From Vampirovibrio sp. (GTDB taxonomy: Bacteria; Cyanobacteriota; Vampirovibrionia; Vampirovibrionales; Vampirovibrionaceae), in contig DAIDMR010000082.1 in assembly GCA_027448865.1 (NCBI GenBank), positions 1-42,910 of the forward strand: DNA of 42,910 nt, read 5' to 3'. A program made the position numbers and the translations under genes. Positions within the stretch are counted from its first letter, which is position 1. Each line of letters opens with the position of its first letter. Below are positions 1 to 18,915 of this stretch, piece after piece. The notes under the pieces were generated by a model. It was not told where the DNA came from. It saw nothing but the letters and a program-made list of their open reading frames with translations, and ran no database searches.

Positions 1-180
1 CCCAAGGAAAATCCGGCAGTGAAAGCCGCAGCGGTGACCGCGCTGGGTTATATCGATCGTCCCAACGATCCGGTGATCAAGGGGCTGCTGAATCGGGCGG
101 CTAAAGATCCCAATCAGGATGTTAAAAATGCCGTTCAACAGGTCAAATCCGGTTTGATGGGCGCAGCGGTACAAGGTTAA
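1..180 (+). CDS. HEAT-repeat-like protein, C-terminal fragment (truncated by window start)
   Basis: Open frame from base 1: PKENPAVKAAAVTALGYIDRPNDPVIKGLLNRAAKDPNQDVKNAVQQVKSGLMGAAVQG*; repeat-like helix pairs. Confidence 0.7.
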   Translation, partial: PKENPAVKAAAVTALGYIDRPNDPVIKGLLNRAAKDPNQDVKNAVQQVKSGLMGAAVQG

Positions 181-238
181 TCTACCCAGTTCACCGGTTG
201 CTTCCGTCCCAACGGGATTTGCTCAGTCAAATAAACGG

Positions 239-273
239 ACAAAGTCGAAAGTCTAGAGGATTTTCGACTTTGT
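239..273. terminator. Terminator-like hairpin after HEAT gene
   Basis: Perfect 12-bp inverted repeat ACAAAGTCGAAA / TTTCGACTTTGT with 11-nt loop, 59 nt after the stop; T-tract poor. Confidence 0.5.
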
Positions 274-569
274 TTACTTGAAATGAACAGAATCAGGCAT
301 TATGATAGAGAATGAGAAGCACATCAGTATCCATTTTTTGGTCATTCACCATTTCAGGAACAATCGGAGGGGCGTATGACCCGGGTTGTTTCAAGCCGGT
401 GACAATTGCTGCCGTTATTGATCTGCCGCTGCGGGTGTTTTTCGCCGAAGCATGCCCGCACTCCGGTAAAGGACAATGCCGCGATTCGATATGCTGCTCC
501 GCAATTCCGTTGTTTGCTCTAAGATGCCAATCATGCTGAACGCCTGCAATCAGGAGGACTGGACTCATT

Positions 570-2102
570 TTGAAGGCCTACTGTCTCAATCGGCTGTTGC
601 TGCGGAGCGCCCAGGTGCTTTTGAACGCGGTTGTCCTGATAGCGGTGCTTTCCACAGGGGCCGAGGCTCAGCGACCCTCGCCGGTACCGGTGGCGGCAAC
701 GCTACATAAGTTGCAATTTCTGGAGTCCGGGACACATACCCAGCTGGTTTTAACCCTGAGTCGCTCCCCGGAGGCCTTGGTGGTTCAGGATGATCCGGGC
801 AAGCCCATGACCATCAGCTTCAAGGCCGCCGCTTCCCCGGGCGACTTTCCGCAAAACCGAACGTTCAATCAGCCCAACCTCAAAGGGGTATTTATCGAAA
901 GCCGCAATGGGCGCATCCAGATCTTCGTCAAGCGTGTTTTGCCGGGCTCGGTCACGCTGGCTCGGCAAAATAGCCGATTAACCCTGAATATGCCTCATTT
1001 TTTGAGTCAGCCTGGCAATTCTCCAGAGAAGGCCAGCAGTCCCGGTCCGGAGCTTGCCCCGGGCATTCAGCACAGGCAATTGACGGAACGGCTACCAGCC
1101 GGGCCGGTTCGGGTGAACGTGCTGGAAATTGATCCGCAAAACCCCTCTGTGACCATTACACCGGCTTTGGCCTCCAACCGGATGGGAGCCAAGGCCAATG
1201 TGGCGGCCATGGTGGCAGGCCATCAGGCCGTTGCCGGAATCAATGGCTCTTTTTTCAAACAGGACAAAGGGATTCCGCTGGGCATCCTGATCATTAATCA
1301 GGAACTCATTTCCGGGCCGATTTACGATCGGGTGGCTATGGGTATTACGCCCAACAACGAGATCGTCATGGACCGGGTACGGCTGGGCGGCGAGGTTCTG
1401 TTGCCCGACCGCCGCCGGGTGCCTATCCACACCATTAACCAACCTCGGGTGAAGAGCAACCAGACCGTTTTATATACCTCCCGTTGGGGCAAGCAAGCAC
1501 CGCCCGTTCCTGAGGATGGATTGCAGATCCTGATTCGCCAGGATCGGGTTGCTGCAGTCTCCCAAACCGAAGCTCTTCCCATTCCGCAGGACGGTATGGT
1601 CCTGTCTGGCCCAGCCAGCCCGGAAATGCTGGCGCTAGGCAGTCTAAACCCGAATATACCGCTCAGCCTGAATGTGTATACACTGCCCGACTGGTCAGGA
1701 ATGAAGCATGCGGTGGGCGGAGGCCCCTGGCTGGTGAGGAACGGGACGCCCTATGTTGACCTTCAGGCGCAGCACTTTACCAGCAGAAGTCTGGGGAGTC
1801 GGGAGCCCCGCAGTGCCGTTGGGGTGACCGCACAGGGCAAAATGCTTCTGGTCACCGTGGATGGTCGACAAAAAGGTGTTTCCATCGGTATGACCCTGTA
1901 TGAGATGGCCTATCTGATGAAAAAATTGGGCGCCATCAACGCCATGAACCTGGATGGGGGGAGTTCCACCCAAATGTCGGTTTACGGGCGGACGGTCAAC
2001 CGCCCTTCAGCCGGTTCCATTGGGGTCAGTAACTCCTTGATCATTAAAACCGCCCCAACGGACACGGCAAGCAATCCGTCAGCGCCCCTGCCGGTCAAAT
2101 GA
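570..2102 (+). CDS. Phosphodiester glycosidase (NAGPA-like) family protein with AMIN-like N-terminal region
   Basis: 510 aa ORF; signal-like N-terminus; GINGSFFKQDKGIPLGILI, RSAVGVTAQGKMLLVTVDGR and AMNLDGGSSTQM motifs typical of the family; TTG start. Confidence 0.8.
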   Translation: MKAYCLNRLLLRSAQVLLNAVVLIAVLSTGAEAQRPSPVPVAATLHKLQFLESGTHTQLVLTLSRSPEALVVQDDPGKPMTISFKAAASPGDFPQNRTFNQPNLKGVFIESRNGRIQIFVKRVLPGSVTLARQNSRLTLNMPHFLSQPGNSPEKASSPGPELAPGIQHRQLTERLPAGPVRVNVLEIDPQNPSVTITPALASNRMGAKANVAAMVAGHQAVAGINGSFFKQDKGIPLGILIINQELISGPIYDRVAMGITPNNEIVMDRVRLGGEVLLPDRRRVPIHTINQPRVKSNQTVLYTSRWGKQAPPVPEDGLQILIRQDRVAAVSQTEALPIPQDGMVLSGPASPEMLALGSLNPNIPLSLNVYTLPDWSGMKHAVGGGPWLVRNGTPYVDLQAQHFTSRSLGSREPRSAVGVTAQGKMLLVTVDGRQKGVSIGMTLYEMAYLMKKLGAINAMNLDGGSSTQMSVYGRTVNRPSAGSIGVSNSLIIKTAPTDTASNPSAPLPVK

Positions 2103-2195
2103 GTGGACAGGGGTGAACAGAGGGGAGAGATTCCGCCGTTGGGGATGGGGGACTGTGTGGCCTCCAGTAAGATTATTCGATACGGATAAAAATGG

Positions 2196-2201
2196 TATAC
2201 T
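2196..2201 (+). promoter_or_regulatory. Putative extended -10 promoter (TGG-TATACT) for the 2476 gene
   Basis: TGGTATACT; -35 (TTATTC) is poor. Confidence 0.4.
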
Positions 2202-2475
2202 AGATCAGGTTATAAAGCGGGAATACTGCGTCCTAACCTGATAAGGCCCCTTTCTGGCGCTGCCCGATCCGTCTGCGCCTGACTTCCGCTAAAAGTCTGT
2301 CAGCCCGGCTTCGAACCGGCTTCGAAAAAGTTGAAGAAGAAAAACAGGATCGAGGCATCGGGCAGTTAGCATCATCAGTATTAATGGAACTCAGGGAAAC
2401 TCAGGAACTCATTTTATAGGCGCGTGAATCATCGCCAGTCCGTGTTCTAAACGGTATCAGCCGGGGCATTATCAG

Positions 2476-5106
2476 ATGAATTTTAAGGATTCCACGAAGT
2501 TGAACAGCAGCATGGTGTCACTTTCTAGACAAATATCCCTGATTAGCCTCACCGGTTTGGCCCTGCTTTGTCTGGTCAATCCGGTATGGGCCGTGGATGG
2601 CAGGATTCAGGATATTCGCTATGACGCGGCCAGTCGGCATTTTCAAATCAATTCCGCCGGAAATGTAAAAGCCACGGTCAACACCCTGAATATCGCCGGG
2701 CACAAGCGCATTATCATTGACATTGACAATGCCGAAATTGGCACGGAGCTGCCCCGGGATGTCCAATTGCTGCACACGCTGTCTCGGCAGTTGCCGGCCC
2801 TGAAGAATGTAACCGTCAACCAGTACGCTGGAAACGGACGTCCCATTGTCCGTATTTTGTTTGACATTGAAGGCGAGCCCGGTACCATTCGTCTGGTGCG
2901 CAATCAGGGGGCTCAAATTGAGCTGGAATTCAACGAGTCTGCCAACTGGACAGCGGCCCGCAGCACGTATGGCCCGCCGATGACTTCCAGAAACCGGACG
3001 GAAACCCCTCAGCCCGTTCAAAGCGACTATACGGACGTTGACTTGCGCCGTACCCTGGCCATCATGAACCAGAAGTATGACCTGCTGGCCCAGGAAAACC
3101 AATACCTCAAGACCCGGCTTTTATCCCTGGAGCAAAATAGCGGCGCTCAGCAAAGCCAGCAACAAAACAATCGGGAAGAGCAAATCCGGTTAAAAAGTGA
3201 ACTGGAACGGCTCAAGGCTGAAAATGGTAATCTGCAAACGCGCCTGATGTCGCTTTCTGCGGAAAAGCAGCGACCTGATCCGGCGCTGTATGCCAAAGAT
3301 TCCGAAATTAATCGGCTAAAAACCGAAAATCAGGCGCTGAATAGTCGATTGACTGCGGCCTTGAGCGCCAGTAACGAGTCTGGTTTATCGGCCATGAAGC
3401 AGAGTCTGGCGGAACTCAATCGGCGTTATGAGTTACTGGTCAGTGAAAATCAGGGCCTGAAAAGTAAATTGAGCGCACAAAGTGGTCAAACCAGTAGCGC
3501 GCAGACCTACAAAGCGGAAGTCGAGCGCCTCAGCCAAAGCTATCAGTCTCTATTGACCGAGAATAACCGCTTGAAGTCTGAACTGGGTCAAAGCAAAGCC
3601 ACGGCGGCCAAGACTCCCCCCATCAAGGACACTGACCTGGCGGCCCTGAGAAGCCAGCTGGTTACGGCGCAAACGTCACTGGGAGAGTCGATACAGACCA
3701 TCAACCAGCAAAACAAGGAAATCGCGTTTTTAAAGAATCAGGTGAATCAGGTTAAAAACGGGCTGAACGCTTCCTCCAAAGAGCAAATCGCCACGCTGCA
3801 AGCCGAAATTGATACCTTGCGCAAGAATGCGGCATCCAGTAAAGTCAGTAACGCCGACAAGCAAGTCATCGAGCAGCTCAGGCAGGATAAGCTGGCCATG
3901 CAAAACGAGCTGGAGGCTTTGCGCAAGAGCGCCTCTGCCAGCAAGGGCAACAGTGCCGATCAACAGCGGATTGCGCAATTAACGCAAGACAAACAGACTC
4001 TGCAAAACGAGCTGGACTCCCTGCGCAAGAGCGCCCTTGCCAGCAAGGGCAAAAACGCCGATAAGCAGCTGATCGCCCAGTTAACGCAAGACAAACACGC
4101 CCTGCAAAGCGAGCTGGAACGCCTGAGCGCAAGCCAGAGTCAGGCTGCGGAGAATCAGGAGAAAGCCGCTCAACTGCAATCGCAAGTGGCCAGTTTGCAA
4201 TCGGACTTGTCCAGCCCGAAAGCGCAGTATGAAAAAGCCAGTCAGGAGGCCTTACAAGCTAAACAGGCCCTGAAAGCGGCAAACAGCAAAACCGCCACGG
4301 CGTCCGGCTCGACCAAGACCACCTCAAGCCCGACCCAGCAAAAGCAAATCCAGAGCCTGACCCAGCAATTGGCCAGTCTGAAGCAGGAAAACAGTAGTCT
4401 GCGGGAGAGTTTAAGCAACGCCAGCGTCAGTAATCGCAAGTCTGGCCCCACCAACGCCGAAGCGGAACAGAATTATCAGGCCGGAAAAACGGCCATTGGC
4501 GAGAAAAAGATGAGTGTGGCTCTGGATAGCCTGAAGAAGGCCACCCTTCTGGATCAGGACAACAGCAAATACGTGGTGGACTACAGCATTGCATTGGCCG
4601 AAGACCGCCAGTTCGCCGAGGCCATTGATGTACTCCGCCGCTACATCCAGCGCAATCCGGGAGATCGGGAGGCCTACAACCAGCTGGGTAAAATATACCT
4701 GCTGAATGACCAGCCCGATGCCGCCAATCAGGCTTTTACCCGGGCCATCCCGGTCAGCGTGCTGAACAACTACGCCACGTCTCTTAAAAAACTGGGCAGT
4801 ACCGCCGAAGCGGAATCCATTTTCAAGCTGGCTCTGAGCATCAACCCCAAGGATAGTGAAATTCTGTTTAACCTGGGCAACCTTTACAATGCGGAAAACA
4901 AGCTGGAGGAGGCCCGGAACAAGTATCTGGAAGCCATTCAGATACGGCCCGGCTTTGCCGAGGCCCACTATAACCTGGGCCTGATTTTTTCCAAGCTGGG
5001 CGATAACCCCAAAGCGGTTCAGCATCTGGAAAAATATTTGCAACTATCCCCCAATGCCCGCAATGCGGAGACTATTCGGGCTTATATGCAAAAGTTAAAA
5101 GCCTAA
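2476..5106 (+). CDS. Secreted AMIN-like / coiled-coil / TPR protein
   Basis: 876 aa; signal peptide, AMIN-like beta region, long coiled coil, C-terminal TPRs (AEAHYNLGLIFSKLGDNPKAVQHLEKYLQLSPNA). Confidence 0.8.
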   Translation: MNFKDSTKLNSSMVSLSRQISLISLTGLALLCLVNPVWAVDGRIQDIRYDAASRHFQINSAGNVKATVNTLNIAGHKRIIIDIDNAEIGTELPRDVQLLHTLSRQLPALKNVTVNQYAGNGRPIVRILFDIEGEPGTIRLVRNQGAQIELEFNESANWTAARSTYGPPMTSRNRTETPQPVQSDYTDVDLRRTLAIMNQKYDLLAQENQYLKTRLLSLEQNSGAQQSQQQNNREEQIRLKSELERLKAENGNLQTRLMSLSAEKQRPDPALYAKDSEINRLKTENQALNSRLTAALSASNESGLSAMKQSLAELNRRYELLVSENQGLKSKLSAQSGQTSSAQTYKAEVERLSQSYQSLLTENNRLKSELGQSKATAAKTPPIKDTDLAALRSQLVTAQTSLGESIQTINQQNKEIAFLKNQVNQVKNGLNASSKEQIATLQAEIDTLRKNAASSKVSNADKQVIEQLRQDKLAMQNELEALRKSASASKGNSADQQRIAQLTQDKQTLQNELDSLRKSALASKGKNADKQLIAQLTQDKHALQSELERLSASQSQAAENQEKAAQLQSQVASLQSDLSSPKAQYEKASQEALQAKQALKAANSKTATASGSTKTTSSPTQQKQIQSLTQQLASLKQENSSLRESLSNASVSNRKSGPTNAEAEQNYQAGKTAIGEKKMSVALDSLKKATLLDQDNSKYVVDYSIALAEDRQFAEAIDVLRRYIQRNPGDREAYNQLGKIYLLNDQPDAANQAFTRAIPVSVLNNYATSLKKLGSTAEAESIFKLALSINPKDSEILFNLGNLYNAENKLEEARNKYLEAIQIRPGFAEAHYNLGLIFSKLGDNPKAVQHLEKYLQLSPNARNAETIRAYMQKLKA
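3796..4125 (+). repeat. Tandem 102-bp (34-aa) coding repeat, about 3.2 copies
   Basis: Protein units starting at 3796, 3898, 4000 and partial at 4102: LQNELxxLRKSAxASKGxxADxQxIAQLTQDKxx. Confidence 0.85.
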
Positions 5107-5120
5107 CCTGAGGGTAATCA

Positions 5121-7217
5121 GTGGGTGAGTTGAGGAGACAAACCCTTAAAATTTCAGCGCTTTGCCTGCTGTCCGGTTTAGGCTGGGCGGCTCTGGCCGC
5201 CGTGTGGGGAGAGGGCACCAACCAGATCACTGATATTCAGCTGACACCCAACGGGAACCTCTCTTTTACAGTGAACGGGGCGGGATTTGATCCGCTGTTG
5301 CTGGTGCGCCCTGTTCCTCAGGGGCGTTACCAGATTACCATCGCCTCCCGGGAGGCCCGATTGAATGGCCCCCGGGAACGCCCACTGGCCGAGCAGATTC
5401 AAGCCCGGATTCCTGCCATTGAGTCTATCCTGTTATCCGGGGATGACACGGGTTTTCAGTTGAACCTGACCAGCTGGCAAAAACTCCAGCCTCAAATTCT
5501 CAGCAATACGCCCGGCCAGATTGTGGTGACCCTGGTGGGAAACCATCAGCGTCCCCCTCAAAATCAAGCCCGGTCTGCCTCTCACAGTCGGCCAGAGCCT
5601 GTGCCCCCGATCAAGCCCCCTGCCAGCTCACAGGCGGCTGTAAAGCCTCCAGGGCCTGCCAGCGCCCAGGTGAAGCCCCTTCCCGTGAAAGCCGCCCCGC
5701 CTCAGTCCAGTGCGGAAGTGGCCTTGGAAAAGTCCGCTCCTGCGCCAGCGGCTGAAAAAAGGGAAAGTCAGCGGGTCTTACCTGTAAAAGCGGCTCCCAA
5801 GTTGAAGGAGGCTTCTTCTTCCGCTACTTCTGCCAATGCCACAGCAGCCCCATCCTCCGCTCCTTCGACCACAGCGGCCCCTTCGGGGTCTGCCAGCGTG
5901 AAAGCGGCTGAGCCGGTAAGGAGACACCCGGTCGTGCCTGTCGCCGCATCCCCCCTCAAGGCGGGCTCAGACATCCAGCGTGCCTCTGTGCCCGTTAGAC
6001 TGACTTCCATTGCGCCGAAAGCCCTTGAAATGGACTGGTTACCCCTTCAACGCACATCCGGGAAGTCCGGGTTGCCTGAAATGACGCATCCCGACCCTAC
6101 ACTGGAAGCGTTGAATTTCCTCAGTCAGGGTGAACCGGCGAAGCCCACAAACACGGCTTCAGGCACGTCCTCAGACACGTCCTCAATCTTGCCGAACGCG
6201 CCGGAGGCATTCCCCTTGCGCTTACAGAAAACCCCGGCTGGCTATCAACTCCCCACGGCCACACCAGGGCAACCCGATACGGTCAGTCAGGGCGTCGATG
6301 CCCTGATTTTGGGTAATGAATACAGTGTGCTTCAGGAACCGACCCTGCAACGGGCGGCGGACGATGTTCGAAACGGGCGACTGGACAACGCCGAAGTCAC
6401 CTTGCAAGGCTTTCTGGCCCGGGAGCCGGATCATCCGCAGGCCAATTATTTGCTGGCCCTGATCTATCTATCACCCGCCAATCCAGTGACGCCCAACGAG
6501 GCTGGCAACAGTCGCCAGCAGCAGGCGCAACGTTTACTGGAAACCCTTCAAGCCCGGCAGCCCCGTCTGCCGGTTTACCAGCAACTGATTGGGCTGGCCA
6601 TAACGCAAAATCAGGCTGAGACTGCCTCGGATCTTCTCAAGGAGGCTCTACGACAGTTTCCGGACAATGCCTGGCTGTGGTACCTGCAAGGAAGGGGGCT
6701 GGAGGAGGTCAAACACTGGGAGGCGGCAAAATCGGCCTACACACAGGCATTGGCACTGGATGGCAATCACCCGGAGTATCTCTACCGGCTGGCCCTGATG
6801 CATATGAAACAGGAAAACTGGGCGGCCTGTGCCCGGGTCTTGAATCGGGCGCTGGCCATCGCCCCGGACGATGCCCGCTTTCTGAAGTTGATGGGCTACC
6901 TGAGCGAGAAGCAGGGTGTTCCCTCGGCGGCGGGCCATTATTACCAAGCGGCCCTGCAAACGGATGTCATGCTCTACTATGGGCGTTTGCTGCTGCATCA
7001 GAAACGAACCGCCGAAGCGCTGTCTTTTTATCAGGCTGTCGAGAGTGTGGCGGAGAATGATCCTGATCTGCTCCTGAGCCTGGGCACCCTGTACACCGAG
7101 GCCAAGGCGGCTCAGCGCGCCCAAACTGTGTTAAAGCGGTTGATCCAGCTGGTGCCCGACGCCAAGGATCCCCGGCAAGGTCAGGCCAGAGCCATGCTGA
7201 GGCAGGCCAGAAACTAG
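5121..7217 (+). CDS. TPR protein with AMIN-like N-terminus and Pro/Ala-rich linker
   Basis: 698 aa ORF; C-terminal TPR units (HWEAAKSAYTQALALDGNHPEYLYRLALMHMKQENWAACARVLNRALAIAPDD). Confidence 0.8.
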   Translation: MGELRRQTLKISALCLLSGLGWAALAAVWGEGTNQITDIQLTPNGNLSFTVNGAGFDPLLLVRPVPQGRYQITIASREARLNGPRERPLAEQIQARIPAIESILLSGDDTGFQLNLTSWQKLQPQILSNTPGQIVVTLVGNHQRPPQNQARSASHSRPEPVPPIKPPASSQAAVKPPGPASAQVKPLPVKAAPPQSSAEVALEKSAPAPAAEKRESQRVLPVKAAPKLKEASSSATSANATAAPSSAPSTTAAPSGSASVKAAEPVRRHPVVPVAASPLKAGSDIQRASVPVRLTSIAPKALEMDWLPLQRTSGKSGLPEMTHPDPTLEALNFLSQGEPAKPTNTASGTSSDTSSILPNAPEAFPLRLQKTPAGYQLPTATPGQPDTVSQGVDALILGNEYSVLQEPTLQRAADDVRNGRLDNAEVTLQGFLAREPDHPQANYLLALIYLSPANPVTPNEAGNSRQQQAQRLLETLQARQPRLPVYQQLIGLAITQNQAETASDLLKEALRQFPDNAWLWYLQGRGLEEVKHWEAAKSAYTQALALDGNHPEYLYRLALMHMKQENWAACARVLNRALAIAPDDARFLKLMGYLSEKQGVPSAAGHYYQAALQTDVMLYYGRLLLHQKRTAEALSFYQAVESVAENDPDLLLSLGTLYTEAKAAQRAQTVLKRLIQLVPDAKDPRQGQARAMLRQARN

Positions 7218-7238
7218 TTCAAGGGCCAGCTGACACCA

Positions 7239-8504
7239 TCAGCACTGCTCCGGCCCGGAGAAGGTTCCGCCAGCCACATCATCCACATACCGGGTCAATC
7301 GCTGATAATCTTTCTCTCCCAGCCGATGGTGGGTGTCCTCCCAGATCGACAGCCTTTTTTGACCAGGGTGCCTGTAAAACGGGCTAGCGGTCTGTGAGCC
7401 CGTCGCTTCAAACATCTGCTCAACCTGCCGCATGGGGATGTACTTGTCATTTCGGCCCCGCACAAAGTGTACCGGCGTTTTGGTGAGCTGCCTCAAGGGG
7501 GTGACCCCATCCATATCCAGCCGAATGCGATTCTCATTCAGCAGCCAGCCCAGCTTGAAGCGATCCCGAATGTGGACAAATACCTGTTTGAATGAAGGCA
7601 GCGGGTTGACCAGAATCAGTGCTTTCAAGGGGTTTTCATCCATTTGTTCCAGAACGCGAGCCGTATAAGCGCCTACCATGCTACCCAGTGAATTGCCCAC
7701 ATGAATTTGCCGGGAAAGTGGAATGTCCAGTCCGCGACTGCTTTTGGCGTACAGGCTTACCGCCACGCCTGATTTGTTCAGGGCGTCCGGGGTGGCGATG
7801 CCCCCACTGCGTCCAAAGCCGGGGTAATCATAGAGCAACAGGCCCAGCTTTCTTTGCCGAAAAACCTGCATAACCCGCTCTAGGTGCATCATGTTACTGC
7901 CGCGTCCATGATGGAGAACCACCGTGGGCCGTCCGGCGGGGGCGGGGATATGCCAGGCGTGAATTTTCAACTTGTCCAGTGTGGCATCCAGTTCTACACC
8001 GGCTTTGACCAGACACGCACGGTTTTCCTCCAGAACCTGTTTCATGTTGATGTATCGTTCCTGAACCAACGCTCCTAGCGTGGTGTCTTTCAGGTATCTC
8101 AGATCCGGCTTTTCCTTGGGCCCGGTTAAAAAGCGGTGCGCCGACAGTTTCTCAATGCGGGTGGATAAGGCTTTGGGCAGAGGCACAAAGATCAGCGACC
8201 ACAGGCACAAGCCACCCAGCATCTTCATCCAGTCCACGGCGTAACGCAGGGAGAGCAGACCGCCGATTGAAGTTTTTCGCAACCGCTGCGGTAATTTTCG
8301 CCAGAAACACGGTTGTGCTTTCCCGCTTGCCTCCGGGGAATCGTGAGGGACACGCTGGCCGATGCCCGCCGTGGAAGGCCGCTGAGAAGTCGCCGCCGGG
8401 TGGGGTGTGGACGTGGCCACAGCCGCACGCTGATGAGATGAATTCGGGGTTCCGGTCTGTGGTGATGAGACAGCGGAGACGGACAATTGACTCACGATTG
8501 ACAC
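7239..8504 (-). CDS. Alpha/beta hydrolase family protein
   Basis: PTVVLHHGRGSNMMHLERV, LLYDYPGFGRSGG and HVGNSLGSMVGAY (nucleophile elbow); late HH. Confidence 0.8.
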   Translation of the reverse strand: MSIVSQLSVSAVSSPQTGTPNSSHQRAAVATSTPHPAATSQRPSTAGIGQRVPHDSPEASGKAQPCFWRKLPQRLRKTSIGGLLSLRYAVDWMKMLGGLCLWSLIFVPLPKALSTRIEKLSAHRFLTGPKEKPDLRYLKDTTLGALVQERYINMKQVLEENRACLVKAGVELDATLDKLKIHAWHIPAPAGRPTVVLHHGRGSNMMHLERVMQVFRQRKLGLLLYDYPGFGRSGGIATPDALNKSGVAVSLYAKSSRGLDIPLSRQIHVGNSLGSMVGAYTARVLEQMDENPLKALILVNPLPSFKQVFVHIRDRFKLGWLLNENRIRLDMDGVTPLRQLTKTPVHFVRGRNDKYIPMRQVEQMFEATGSQTASPFYRHPGQKRLSIWEDTHHRLGEKDYQRLTRYVDDVAGGTFSGPEQC

Positions 8505-8772
8505 TCTACGATTCAGCTTGTGATGGGGGTAATTACATGAACGTAAAACATGATTTTTAATGCCCGCCGGAGTTGCCTGCCAGATCGGCCTGATTCGGGT
8601 AATCCGACCGATTACAGACTTGCCTGTTCACTTTGCGTAGCCAATTGCTTATAGTGGGTGTACGCTGTTACGGTGCAAGCTTGGCATATCCGCTGGCATA
8701 CCCGCGCCTCAGCCCCATCTTTTCAATAGGCAGTCACTTGTTAGTCTTGAGTCAGGGACACGGTCCGACGGC

Positions 8773-10464
8773 ATGCGTGAGACAAAATCCGATAATCCCA
8801 AGGCGTGGCCAGACTGGTCGCTTCTGCTTCTGGCGCTTGTTTTTGCACTGGGTCTGGCATTGTGGGTGGAACGTCGGGTTTTTAGCGATCCGGCGGCCCT
8901 GAACGATGATGTGCGTAACCAAATCTACTGGATGGCTCGTATTGCAAACCCCTCCGCCTTCAGTGAGGACTACATCGCCCGGTACTTCACACAGCCTATG
9001 CTTATCTCGCCGGTGCTGTGGCTTCTGTACCTGCTGGGTGGGCAATGGCTGACCCCTGCCCAGCTCTCCCAGATCTTACCGTTCGGGATGGTTGTGTTGA
9101 CCACCTTTTTGTTATTCCAGTACGCCAAACGCTACCAGAATGGTTTGTACGCCTTCTGGGTCTGCTTTTCCTTCAACTGCGCCCTGTGGATCTTCAAAAA
9201 TATGGCGGGCGGGCTTTCCCGTTCGTTTATTTACCCTCTATTGTTTTGGACGCTTTGGCAATTACACCTGAAAAACTGGTACTGGCTGGGGCTGGGACTG
9301 GTTCTCAGCGCCATGATCTATCCTCCGGCTTTCTTTTTGGGCTTTATTCTCCTGATCATTGAAACGATTTATCTGGCCAATCGGGATGGCATGCTCAAAG
9401 ATCGGCTGATATGCCTGCTGGGGAGCTTTGCGGGAAGTCTGGGATTGCTGTTCTGGCGTTCGGCCAATAGCGCCGAAACCGGGCCCCTGTTTGGCCCGCT
9501 GAATACCAACCAGTCCATTGCCGGACTGCCCGATTTTGCCAGTGGGGGGCGGGTGGTTCTGTTTCCCTGGGGCAATTTTTCGGAAAGCTGGGTTGCGCCC
9601 CTGCAATGGGTCGGGCACATATTGGAGCGGCTGCCTCATCTTTATATCCTGATTCCCACGGCGGGCTTTGGTCTGGCTCTGCTGTTCTACAACCGCTTTG
9701 CCAAAAAGCACTGGGGGCCGTTGCTGATTCCTCCGCAGGTCTGGCGTCTGCTGATCAGCTCTTCGATTTTGTACAGTATCGCCTGGGTTTTCCTGTTCTA
9801 TTTTTATGTGCCGGAGCGCTACTTTCAGTACACCCTGCCCCTCATTCCCACCTTTATGGTGGGGGCCATGATCTATCAGCTTCAGCGGCGCTACAGCACG
9901 GCCAAACGCTGGGCCTATCTGGGTTTGGCAGCACTGGGTCTGTTGATCACCAGCTTTTTCTGGCGCGCCGATCTGATGAACCCCAAAGAGACTGAGCGCA
10001 GCCTGTACAAGTTCCTGGCCCAAACTCCGGCTCACAGTATGATTGCGGCCTCCCCCGGATTGGCCAGCAATATCCCCCTGTACGCTTACCGCAGTGTCTA
10101 TATCAGCAACGAGGCCTACATTCCTTTTCATCAGGAGTACTTCAAGGTCATCAAGGATCGCCTGAAGTCTTTCCTGACGGCTTATTATGCCGTTGACGCC
10201 CAATTGCTGGCCGATTTTGTGCGACAGAACCGCGTTGACTACTTTGTGGTGCAAACCATCGACTTTAAGGAGCCCCGCCTGAGCGAGCTGCCCAAACGGT
10301 ATTATTATGCCTTTGACACCCTGTTTTTTGAGTTCCTGAAGCAGGCAAACCCGCAGCAGTATCTGCTGATCCAGACGCCGGATCGCTGCGTTCCCTTTCA
10401 GACCCGAGGCTTGAAAGTCATCGAGATGCCTTGCCTGATCAAGGCGCTGCAGCCTGACCTGTGA
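8773..10464 (+). CDS. Multi-pass membrane protein (glycosyltransferase-like or unknown)
   Basis: 563 aa with many hydrophobic helices. Confidence 0.7.
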   Translation: MRETKSDNPKAWPDWSLLLLALVFALGLALWVERRVFSDPAALNDDVRNQIYWMARIANPSAFSEDYIARYFTQPMLISPVLWLLYLLGGQWLTPAQLSQILPFGMVVLTTFLLFQYAKRYQNGLYAFWVCFSFNCALWIFKNMAGGLSRSFIYPLLFWTLWQLHLKNWYWLGLGLVLSAMIYPPAFFLGFILLIIETIYLANRDGMLKDRLICLLGSFAGSLGLLFWRSANSAETGPLFGPLNTNQSIAGLPDFASGGRVVLFPWGNFSESWVAPLQWVGHILERLPHLYILIPTAGFGLALLFYNRFAKKHWGPLLIPPQVWRLLISSSILYSIAWVFLFYFYVPERYFQYTLPLIPTFMVGAMIYQLQRRYSTAKRWAYLGLAALGLLITSFFWRADLMNPKETERSLYKFLAQTPAHSMIAASPGLASNIPLYAYRSVYISNEAYIPFHQEYFKVIKDRLKSFLTAYYAVDAQLLADFVRQNRVDYFVVQTIDFKEPRLSELPKRYYYAFDTLFFEFLKQANPQQYLLIQTPDRCVPFQTRGLKVIEMPCLIKALQPDL

Positions 10465-15263: not shown

Positions 15264-15402
15264 GACGGAGAAAAAAGGCAAGTAACTAGGCGGTGTTTGG
15301 CGTTTCACGTCCCCAATGACAACTGGTGACTCCTGTGGGCGTGAAGTCCAGTTCATAAGCCCGGGCAGCTTTTTTCCTGAATTCAATATGTTTCCTTAAC
15401 TT

Positions 15403-15484
15403 GGAAGTGATCCGAATGGTTAGGGAGCCGCCTCGAAAGCGGTCGCCCCGTAAGGGGTTGCAGGTTCGACTCCTGTCACTTCCG
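15403..15484 (+). tRNA. tRNA-Ser (anticodon CGA)
   Basis: Acceptor GGAAGTG/CACTTCC, anticodon stem GCCGC-CTCGAAA-GCGGT, long variable arm CCCCGTAAGGGG, T-arm GCAGGTTCGACTCCTGT. Confidence 0.95.
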
Positions 15485-16945
15485 ACTTTTTATTATCTCG
15501 TTAGTTTTCTTGAGGGAATCAAACACCGGATGAAGCTCTAGGTGTGGGATTCCGCCTGTTAGAAAAAAGTTCGACCTTAAAAAATTTAAAATAAGACGCT
15601 TCTCTTCCAGTTCCGCTGAAAACCATTCTCCCTTGAGGATTTCCGGGAGTTCTACCGCAAGATCTGCCATTTGCCTGTAATCGGTATCGGCTTCCGTGAT
15701 TTTTGATTTCTGAGCCTCAACGCCAGCGATTTCCAACAAGCAATCCTGATCAACTGCCCGGTACATGTCAGCATCAATAATCCCGGACAGCCTGTCCTCA
15801 TAAATAGCTCGGCGCTTATTGTGGAGTTTTTTCAGTACCCCTTCCAGCCGGTTCCGTTCGGCTTGTCCGATTTTGTAAATCTCCTGGTGATGCCGCCGCA
15901 CACTGTCCCGGATGACCTGTTTGGCATCCTCTGGAAACACCATACTCCCCAGGGTGGCCTCAACAACCTCAGTAATCCGTGATTCGGGTATATATTTTTC
16001 AGTACAGCCGTTTTTCACCCCGGAACACCGATAGTAAATGTACTTGGATTTTTTAAGCTCCCCAACAATGGCAGAACCGCAATGGCCGCACGTTATCATT
16101 CCCTTGTACAGGAAATCCCGCCTGGACAATGAACAGGGCTTGTTGTCCTTCCTGAACGCCAGCTGGACGGCCCGCCAGGTTTCCCCGTCAATCAGGGGAG
16201 GGTGAGTGCCATCGTAAACTTCACCTTGAAACGGGATTTTTCCGATGTAAGCCACATTTTGAAGCATACTGTGCAACTTTGAGCGGTTTATACGACGGGT
16301 CTGGGGGCGATAGGCAAAGCCTTCTTTGTCCAGCTTGTCAATGACCGCCTCAAGCGAGTAAACCCCAGTTGCGTACAACTGAAAGGCCCGGATGACAAAC
16401 GGGGCCTGCTCCGGGTTGGGAATAATGGTTCGGGTGTTCTTGTCATTTTTGTACCCAAACGGGGCCAGGGTATGCCAGCCCCCGGCCAGTACCTTTTGAC
16501 GCCTGCCCTTCCTGACCTCTTCCGATAGGTTATCCACGTACCGCTTGGCCAATAAAGCGTTCAGGCCGTCAATGAACAACTCAAAACTTTTTGAGTCCCG
16601 GCTGATGACCATGTTTTCCTTGACTTTGTGGACTTCGGCATCGCTATCGCTGATTACGTGCGAGATCAACACATAGTCGTCAAGGTTTCTCAATAGCCTA
16701 TCGGTCTTTTCAACCAGGATAGCCATTCTTCCCGCTTTGTTTTTTGCGCGGACAAAGTCCACCATGGCCGAGAACTGATCACGGCCTGACTTTTTGGCTG
16801 TTTCCGCCTCTGTGAACTCATGAAGTACGGTGAAGCCATTGGCTTGGGCATACCGGCGCAGCAGCTCAAGTTGGGCGGGGATGCTGTACCCTTCCCGTTC
16901 CTGCTCTTTACTGGAAACGCGAGCGTAAACCACGCAGGGTTTCAT
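15476..16945 (-). CDS. Large serine recombinase / integrase
   Basis: VVYARVSSKEQEREGYSIPAQ catalytic N-terminus; recombinase domain; zinc ribbon ITCGHCGSAIVG...YYRCSG...C; coiled coil. Confidence 0.93.
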   Translation of the reverse strand: MKPCVVYARVSSKEQEREGYSIPAQLELLRRYAQANGFTVLHEFTEAETAKKSGRDQFSAMVDFVRAKNKAGRMAILVEKTDRLLRNLDDYVLISHVISDSDAEVHKVKENMVISRDSKSFELFIDGLNALLAKRYVDNLSEEVRKGRRQKVLAGGWHTLAPFGYKNDKNTRTIIPNPEQAPFVIRAFQLYATGVYSLEAVIDKLDKEGFAYRPQTRRINRSKLHSMLQNVAYIGKIPFQGEVYDGTHPPLIDGETWRAVQLAFRKDNKPCSLSRRDFLYKGMITCGHCGSAIVGELKKSKYIYYRCSGVKNGCTEKYIPESRITEVVEATLGSMVFPEDAKQVIRDSVRRHHQEIYKIGQAERNRLEGVLKKLHNKRRAIYEDRLSGIIDADMYRAVDQDCLLEIAGVEAQKSKITEADTDYRQMADLAVELPEILKGEWFSAELEEKRLILNFLRSNFFLTGGIPHLELHPVFDSLKKTNEIIKSRK

Positions 16946-16969: not shown

Positions 16970-17323
16970 TTATTTCCCTAATGGAATGTCATGCCAACTT
17001 AAATGAGGCACGATGGTAAAGACAGTACCCGCCAATAGTATAATGAAAGCAATAATCAAGGAGTATAAAACTGGCATGTGGATACCCATTGACGTTTGGT
17101 ATGCTTGGAATGCGGTACTTGTGGTATCGGTTTTTTTGGCCACCTCTTGCATTTGGCTGGCTATCGCTTCCAGATTCTCTTTTAAGATCTGAATCTGAGA
17201 GTCGGTTTCATCAAGCCTGTGATTGAGCCTTCTTTGGGTGTCATCCATTTGCAGGTCAATGTGGGCACGAAGGCCGCTGATGAGTTGTTGCTGTTCAGGC
17301 GTGTAGGCCATTTTTTCTTTCAA
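16970..17323 (-). CDS. Small coiled-coil protein with C-terminal TM helix
   Basis: 117 aa; HMPVLYSLIIAFIILLAGTVFTIV. Confidence 0.6.
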   Translation of the reverse strand: MKEKMAYTPEQQQLISGLRAHIDLQMDDTQRRLNHRLDETDSQIQILKENLEAIASQMQEVAKKTDTTSTAFQAYQTSMGIHMPVLYSLIIAFIILLAGTVFTIVPHLSWHDIPLGK

Positions 17324-17344: not shown

Positions 17345-17860
17345 CTAACGACCCAATAGCCGCAAAAACAAATTCCCGTACCCGGTGACTGTATCCAGTT
17401 GATCATGGTCTTGACGGTTTACGTTGTAACTGTAATTGTTTGTTTTTAAATTTTGGTTGGTGTTTATGTTTTGATCAACGTACTGCCGCTGGTTCTGGTC
17501 AAGCCGCACATTTGCATCATAGGGAGGCCTGTAATTCGCCTGGGCGTTGATAACGTTTGGCTGCTGCGGGTATTGTTGTCCCTGATAACTTTGGGGTAAA
17601 GGCTGTGAGCCAGGTTGAGTTGGGTAAAGCTGGGTGAACTGGGGAGCTACTGAGGGCGCTTGTGGTTGTGATGGTTGGGCCGTCTGGACAATGGGAATAA
17701 ACTTTCCATCTTTTATAAATCCCTGTTGATGGGAGCCATCAGGCATTACGACTTCTATTACCTGTTGAGGCTTTGCCGGTAGGAGTCCATCGGCATTAAC
17801 TGGCGGGATGGTGGATGTTGAAAGTAAAAACAAGGCGGAAAAGAGGGCGATACGTTTCAT
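17345..17860 (-). CDS. Secreted Gln/Pro/Asn-rich protein
   Basis: Signal peptide MKRIALFSALFLLSTSTIPPVNADG. Confidence 0.6.
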   Translation of the reverse strand: MKRIALFSALFLLSTSTIPPVNADGLLPAKPQQVIEVVMPDGSHQQGFIKDGKFIPIVQTAQPSQPQAPSVAPQFTQLYPTQPGSQPLPQSYQGQQYPQQPNVINAQANYRPPYDANVRLDQNQRQYVDQNINTNQNLKTNNYSYNVNRQDHDQLDTVTGYGNLFLRLLGR

Positions 17861-18273
17861 TTTACGATCTCCATATTTGAGAAGCTGTTTTTTATCTTGA
17901 TAGATAAATCACAGGCTATTGAGTGATTCGCTTCATCCACCTTTTTAGAGATGTCAATCATCTCAATCCAGGTTATAACTTTGAATATAAAAGCTGTAAT
18001 TACCCCAATGAAAATAAATGCCAAAAAAAGATTCATAAAACAAATAAAAATGTACAATATGCCTCTATTGCTATTCCCTAAGTAAAAATGATGAGCCCCA
18101 AGATCTCCAATAAATATACCCAAAAGCAGAGCCGCTGTTGTATTCTTTTTTCTTTTTTTGTATTCACTCAAAAAATACATCTTCTGCTGATCGTCAAAAT
18201 CTTTAACAAGCTGCATTTCGGCATAGCCAAGCTCGTTAAGCATTGACATTGTTAAATAATCATTAGAGTTCAT
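17857..18273 (-). CDS. TM2-domain-like membrane protein
   Basis: TTAALLLGIFIGDLGAHHFYLGNSNRGILYIFICF; RBS AAGGG upstream; ATGA overlap with next gene. Confidence 0.75.
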   Translation of the reverse strand: MNSNDYLTMSMLNELGYAEMQLVKDFDDQQKMYFLSEYKKRKKNTTAALLLGIFIGDLGAHHFYLGNSNRGILYIFICFMNLFLAFIFIGVITAFIFKVITWIEMIDISKKVDEANHSIACDLSIKIKNSFSNMEIVK

Positions 18274-18323: not shown

Positions 18324-18355
18324 TTGACTATAGAATTTTTGTTCGATAGTATCAA
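18324..18355. promoter_or_regulatory. Face-to-face overlapping promoter pair (left side of repressor)
   Basis: + strand TTGACT(18324-18329)-17-TAGTAT(18347-18352); - strand TTGATA(18355-18350)-17-TATAGT(18332-18327). Confidence 0.6.
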
Positions 18356-18384: not shown

Positions 18385-18546
18385 ATGATAAACGACGTAG
18401 GGGGCTCTGTGGACGAAACTTTAAAAGTTGCAATTGATTCATTTGATGATGCTGAGCTTATCCGTTTTATTGCTTTGGCAGAGCTTTTTTCTTTTGCTCC
18501 TCCACCTTGTCTTTCAGCACTGGATTTGCAGAATAAAGCTCTTTAA
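18385..18546 (+). CDS. Candidate 53-aa protein, antisense to the repressor gene 3' end
   Basis: ATG ORF MINDVGGSVDETLKVAIDSFDDAELIRFIALAELFSFAPPPCLSALDLQNKAL*; about 33 nt after a consensus-like promoter. Confidence 0.4.
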   Translation: MINDVGGSVDETLKVAIDSFDDAELIRFIALAELFSFAPPPCLSALDLQNKAL

Positions 18547-18880
18547 AGGCAACTTCAAAACTTTCTTTTGGGATATGTTCACTTGCCCACCAGTACGCCA
18601 ATGTGGCGTAATCCAAACCTAACGTTTCAGACTGGGAAAACTTTTTGAGTAGTTCCATTATCGTAGAGACTTTAGGATCGCGCTTTCCATTTATCCAATT
18701 GCTTACTAAGGTAGTATCAGCGCCAGTTTCCTGAGCGATCTTGTGCGGGGACGTACCCATACTTTTGCAGTACGCCTTGAACTTCTCCACAAACATATCC
18801 ATAACAAGCATTGTCGTCATCACTAACAAAAAATTCAATTTCACTATTGACTTGTTATAAGTAGGAACTATAATATTCAT
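18467..18880 (-). CDS. Phage HTH repressor (CI-like role); true start probably internal, about 18796-18820
   Basis: HTH SPHKIAQETGADTTLVSNWINGKRDPKVSTIMELL; divergent from early genes. Confidence 0.75.
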   Translation of the reverse strand: MNIIVPTYNKSIVKLNFLLVMTTMLVMDMFVEKFKAYCKSMGTSPHKIAQETGADTTLVSNWINGKRDPKVSTIMELLKKFSQSETLGLDYATLAYWWASEHIPKESFEVAFKELYSANPVLKDKVEEQKKKALPKQ

Positions 18881-18902
18881 AAGTTGTTAGTTATAACAAG
18901 TC
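18847..18902. promoter_or_regulatory. Lysis-lysogeny switch: 12-bp inverted operators over overlapping divergent promoters
   Basis: GACTTGTTATAA (18849-18860) and TTATAACAAGTC (18891-18902); + TTGACT-16-TATAAT; - TTGTTA-18-TATTAT. Confidence 0.7.
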
Positions 18903-18915
18903 GAAAGAGCGAACA

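Follow-up and report, generated by a model that had tools for sequence, protein, structure and literature searches.

A probable host LexA box within overlapping promoters beside a Vampirovibrio prophage repressor gene, and a candidate SOS-induced antirepressor

In a prophage of Vampirovibrio sp., two overlapping promoters between the repressor gene and the recombinase operon are centred on a 20-bp palindrome which, on evidence that we regard as well established from the sequence, is almost certainly a LexA box of the host. Our overall reading, to which we attach moderate probability, is that relief from LexA through the SOS response switches on a small rightward gene, probably encoding an antirepressor, and in this prophage perhaps the recombinase operon too. 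The window (the whole stretch of DNA analysed, 42,910 nucleotides) is the entire contig C82 of a genome of 2.69 Mb in 353 contigs. The prophage is laid out in the order tRNA-Ser, serine recombinase, leftward operon, HTH_3 repressor and rightward early genes (helicase, primase), and the promoters and LexA box sit in the gap between the operon start at 18273 and the repressor 3' end at 18467. The relevant features are as follows.

15402-15486, + strand: tRNA-Ser(cga), directly adjoining the 3' end of the recombinase; likely the attachment site
15476-16945, - strand: large serine recombinase (phage integrase) with Resolvase, Recombinase and Zn_ribbon_recom domains; phrog_95 integrase, 3.8e-78
16970-17323, - strand: 117-aa protein, coiled coil plus membrane anchor
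17345-17860, - strand: predicted secreted Pro/Gln-rich protein, no Pfam or PHROGs match
17857-18273, - strand: TM2-domain protein, encoded first in the leftward operon
18324-18352, + strand: rightward promoter TTGACT-17-TAGTAT, 9/12 consensus, with the LexA box within its spacer
18355-18327, - strand: leftward promoter TTGATA-17-TATAGT, 10/12 consensus, also covered by the LexA box
18384-18355, - strand: alternative leftward promoter TTGAAA-18-TATACT, 10/12 consensus, whose start site the LexA box would cover
18329-18348, no strand: LexA box TATAGAATTTTTGTTCGATA, the palindrome at the centre of the promoter pair
18399-18404, + strand: Shine-Dalgarno-like AGGGGG preceding the GTG of the small ORF; its counterpart is AAGGGG in the homologous prophages C208 and L139
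18409-18546, + strand: small ORF, 45 aa from GTG or 53 aa from ATG at 18385; candidate SOS-induced antirepressor
18467-18880 (longest ORF), - strand: phage repressor, HTH_3, no peptidase S24 domain
18844-18907, no strand: pair 1, a large palindrome between the repressor and the early genes, with exact ACTTGTTATAA half-sites at 18850 and 18891, overlapped by promoters facing each way

Contigs of Candidatus Gastranaerophilales are among those with recombinases related to that of the window, and no relatives of the window's repressor, recombinase or TM2 protein were found in IMG/VR.

The core of the palindrome resembled a Bacillus-type LexA box, and the promoter of the host lexA gene was examined for this reason. 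It carries the box ATAGAATTTACGTTCGAT (C69:8877-8894), and across 20 positions the window palindrome is identical to the lexA-promoter box ATAGAATTTACGTTCGATAG at 18 and differs at 2. A scoring matrix was trained on host LexA sites with the window site left out. By this measure the palindrome reaches 24.3 bits, on a scale where the training sites span 18.1-27.3, a level comparable to that of the sites preceding lexA, recA, dinB and two umuD-like genes in the host. No other site in the window exceeds 10.4 bits. The associated p-value is 3.4e-9 per position, so that 1.5e-4 sites this good would be expected in the window, which holds just the one, and about 0.01 genome-wide assuming average composition, or 0.09 assuming that of the gap.

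The host LexA itself has both a LexA_DNA_bind domain (4e-18) and a cleavage-type catalytic domain (Peptidase_S24, 4e-29), and aligns across both with solved LexA repressors. Tandem boxes are present in the lexA promoters of its own genome and of four genomes of the same genus. The genomic background was assessed using pattern searches with a reversed-motif control, in which ATMGAAN6TTCKAT matched four places exactly in the host genome versus one for the control, and 24 versus four when one mismatch was allowed. Non-coding copies lie upstream of host lexA, recA, dinB and two umuD-like S24 genes, one of the latter beside an SRAP gene, and copies in relatives precede dinB, umuD or recA. In seven relatives no lexA was detected; exact boxes are absent from five of these, and G006 has two and G013 one. 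The promoters of the two umuD-like host genes with LexA boxes upstream (L124 1357-2592 and L128 1514-1915, one of them divergent from an SRAP-like gene) have the form TTGCCA-box-TACAAT and TTGACT-box-TATAGT.

The first-pass annotation had described the promoter pair at 18324-18355, and both members are present exactly as it gave them; it had missed the third leftward match at 18384-18355 and the central palindrome. Single promoter-like matches are ordinary in this DNA (12 observed versus 9.9 expected in 10 kb), and at least one appears in 35% of shuffles of the gap. When the 193-bp gap between repressor and operon is dinucleotide-shuffled, 0.1-0.23% of the shuffles give pairs overlapping by at least 26 bp. 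Shuffling the whole window gave such a pair once in 30 trials, and the pair described here is the sole instance of its type in the window. When the palindrome was held fixed and its flanks shuffled, a rightward promoter over the palindrome was recovered in 21% of cases, a leftward one in 6% and the full pair in only 0.035%, showing that the palindrome alone does not generate the pair. The two promoters face outwards with predicted starts approximately 39 bp apart, and each -10 overlaps the -35 of the opposite promoter. In their pseudo-symmetric sequence and divergent output they resemble the symmetric -10 bidirectional promoters (PMC12825309), but the two -10 hexamers here (18327-18332 and 18347-18352) do not overlap one another, and the symmetry comes mostly from the LexA palindrome together with the flanking TTGA/TCAA. 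Both the promoter matches and a comparison of register with host promoters place the LexA box over the promoter core; LexA would be expected to bind there, and the promoters are predicted to be active.

Comparison with related prophages reveals which side of this arrangement is conserved. Two are especially informative.

C208 (L063, G000:C208), 1-9585: another, diverged member of this prophage family, also found in the host genome, in which a BRCT protein replaces the TM2 operon genes
L139 (IMGVR_UViG_3300048597_000654, IMG/VR): a third prophage of the family

The C208 fragment shares 47% identity with the window in its recombinase and 60% in its helicase. In each, the gap separating the repressor tail from the recombinase operon contains a LexA-box match, scoring 22.4 bits in C208 and 17.9 bits in L139 (chance expectation per gap 5e-5 and 4e-4, respectively). 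The first operon genes of the three prophages are unrelated, encoding a TM2 protein, a BRCT protein and a 271-aa membrane protein. In all three, a small gene of 37-53 codons (37-47 in C208 and L139 alone) lies directly downstream of the box and converges on the repressor tail; in C208 and L139 it follows a conserved leader, ACGTAAGAAnATGAAGGGGTTTCA, and runs into the repressor tail. The TTG of a -35 directed towards the small ORF is found at box position -5/-4 in the window, C208, L139 and an element of genome G007, and in the opposite direction in none of the four. In the window, the rightward -35 and -10 span -5 to +24 of the box, which is the register of the host umuD-like promoters and likewise of recA. 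The rightward -10 (TAGTAT) is weak in the window and its equivalents in C208 and L139 are weaker still. The window's leftward -35 and -10 are absent from both. As read from these alignments, the recurrent and conserved side across the three prophages is the rightward one, comprising the -35, the Shine-Dalgarno leader and the small ORF.

Other relatives extend this comparison. A fourth homologous prophage, L138, has no LexA box in the equivalent place, and no box lies near the repressor relatives in G005, G010 and G016 (no lexA was detected in G005, and the contig of G016 terminates nearby). A search with the leader pattern TCGATA..ACGTAAGAA..AGGGG matched C208, G007, L139 and the IMG/VR contig L187; the last of these has neither a LexA box nor a small ORF and was rejected as a chance match. 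The G007 locus (L070, G007:C23, 2562-2720) has a perfect LexA box followed by this leader and a 35-codon ORF, with HTH-like and NYN-like genes near. Elsewhere in the host genome, a partial copy of the window primase (L064, G000:C16, 8136-9482; 52% identical) suggests another prophage fragment.

The protein encoded by the small ORF of the window begins VDETLKVAIDSFDDAELIRFIALAEL, and the last 80 nt of the ORF are antisense to the repressor gene. The spacing of its Shine-Dalgarno sequence is short, at 4 nt. It is only weakly similar to the small proteins of C208 and L139, a resemblance that is not significant in shuffles, and we therefore treat it as their counterpart on the basis of position. 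Searches of phage records returned chance matches only, and there was no Pfam match above the cut-off. The C208 and L139 proteins align with one another, with none of 1000 shuffles aligning as well. In a core of 14 codons (VALLTNEELQHWLK and LALLTDSEIKEWLG), 9.5 of 9.5 synonymous sites differ compared with 11.5 of 32.5 nonsynonymous sites, in a block that was picked for protein similarity and so provides support rather than proof. Each of the other five frames contains stops in at least one of the two sequences, such that this frame is the only one open in both. These codon substitutions are good evidence that the C208 and L139 small ORFs encode real proteins; the window copy is too diverged from them for the same analysis. 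The first-pass annotation had placed a regulatory site between the repressor 3' end and the TM2/secreted/recombinase operon, and this is supported, with output plausible in both directions. The rightward output, which it described as running antisense into the repressor, is probably not antisense RNA alone: in two homologous prophages the same place is occupied by a small ORF whose Shine-Dalgarno sequence is strong.

The repressor returned matches to HTH families only, with no S24 self-cleavage domain, and its direct inactivation by RecA is consequently not expected. Its longest ORF opens within its own promoter region (18796-18880), and its real start probably lies close to 18802. The palindrome of pair 1 is probably the repressor's own operator and contains no LexA box. 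As the palindromes differ in this way, pair 1 and the pair at 18324-18355 (pair 2) would be read by different proteins. A repressor operator at 18324 was also considered and rejected, the pair 1 half-site being unmatched in the gap between repressor and operon.

We propose that the prophage uses a LexA operator of its host as an SOS sensor. In the undamaged lysogen, LexA would occupy the promoter spacer and block firing; upon DNA damage, self-cleavage would remove LexA from 18329-18348 and the promoter would fire. The main output would be rightward, as a short transcript from approximately 18359 which encodes the 45-53 aa protein and enters the 3' end of the repressor gene. The small protein would then inactivate the non-cleavable repressor, in the manner of Tum and GfoA, releasing the lytic operon to the right of 18847. 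In this prophage the leftward promoter, covered by the same box, would probably also raise expression of the TM2/.../recombinase operon for excision. These steps are not equally secure. SOS control of the rightward gene is likely, and the assignment of its product as an antirepressor, made by analogy, is an evenly balanced call. More tentative is the possibility of a two-way SOS switch, in which one box gates both the excision operon to the left and the antirepressor to the right, the mRNA of the latter being antisense to the repressor.

A different way of reading the same operator is that it serves solely for SOS induction of the leftward TM2/secreted/recombinase operon, with the rightward promoter and ORF as by-products of the palindrome. 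The leftward promoter is the closer of the two to consensus and has a second leftward promoter upstream of it, and 56 nt separate the box from the start of the TM2 gene, which has a good Shine-Dalgarno sequence. However, the boxes of C208 and L139 lie 236 and 99 nt from their operon starts with no leftward promoter in register, and it is the rightward elements and the small ORF that recur in these prophages, making this reading rather unlikely. A role for the small SOS-induced protein in some other SOS-timed phage function, for example as a recombination directionality factor for the serine recombinase, would fit its linkage to the recombinase operon in three of three prophages and the fact that no other such factor was recognised in the prophage; we nevertheless consider it unlikely, given that a repressor without S24 needs some route of inactivation and that the small gene abuts the repressor.

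Two further alternatives assign the rightward transcript a role as RNA or as a transcription event. A LexA-controlled bidirectional promoter might yield an antisense RNA, or transcription collision on the repressor mRNA, from an untranslated ORF, and a rightward transcript would indeed run antisense into the repressor gene. Yet the small ORF is conserved between C208 and L139 at the protein level, as is its Shine-Dalgarno leader, and this explanation appears quite improbable. The circuit put forward in the first-pass annotation, in which the two bidirectional promoters flanking the repressor are coupled by RNA-polymerase exclusion so that transcription of the integrase operon prevents antisense silencing, gains from a promoter pair that is exact and rarer than chance. 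The unrelated operators at the two sites count against it, and C208 and L139 do not share the leftward promoter. Basal transcription at the five E. coli bidirectional promoters tested was, moreover, too low for polymerase competition (PMC12825309), which also speaks against such a circuit, and we regard it as very improbable.

SOS control of a small antirepressor gene has precedents. The Gifsy phages of Salmonella have 136-aa repressors which lack the cleavage motif and are not cleaved, together with small antirepressors under direct LexA control, and LexA-controlled antirepressors include GfoA and GfhA of Gifsy, Tum of coliphage 186 and AntC of N15 (PMC3121763). The window prophage resembles these systems in its short repressor without a self-cleavage domain, its small gene under predicted LexA control and a predicted route from SOS to antirepressor. 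With a non-cleavable repressor and these precedents, a LexA-controlled small antirepressor is the economical reading. There are also differences: the window gene runs towards the repressor tail and overlaps it, whereas the Gifsy antirepressor genes lie outside the immunity region, and the small protein, for which an antirepressor role is a prediction, has no detectable sequence relation to GfoA/GfhA, Tum or AntC and is preceded by a different LexA motif. Known SOS boxes include the Bacillus type, CGAAC-N4-GTTCG, and the Nostoc type, RGTAC-N3-DGTWCB (PMC3091678). The motif here shares with the Bacillus type a pseudo-palindromic form, a GAA...TTC core and an overlap with the promoter, but as TATMGAA-N6-TTCKATA, with extended A/T arms, it is distinct from both. 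In phage GIL01, the lysogenic promoter P1 is repressed by host LexA together with the phage protein gp7 (PMC4551915). Direct action of host LexA on a phage promoter is predicted here as well; unlike GIL01, the window prophage has a separate HTH_3 repressor.

The literature searched contained no description of an SOS motif or core SOS regulon for the host lineage, and the analysis yields both in testable form (lexA, recA, dinB, umuD-like and SRAP genes). For prophages of this lineage it predicts DNA-damage sensing despite repressors that are incapable of self-cleavage. A two-way switch, if true, would hit the repressor protein and the repressor mRNA together, and would be a compact induction module which recurs in this prophage family and employs small antirepressors of a family not described before. 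The analysis also nominates as antirepressors a family of overlooked proteins of 37-53 aa, encoded opposite the repressor tail and small enough for gene callers to miss.
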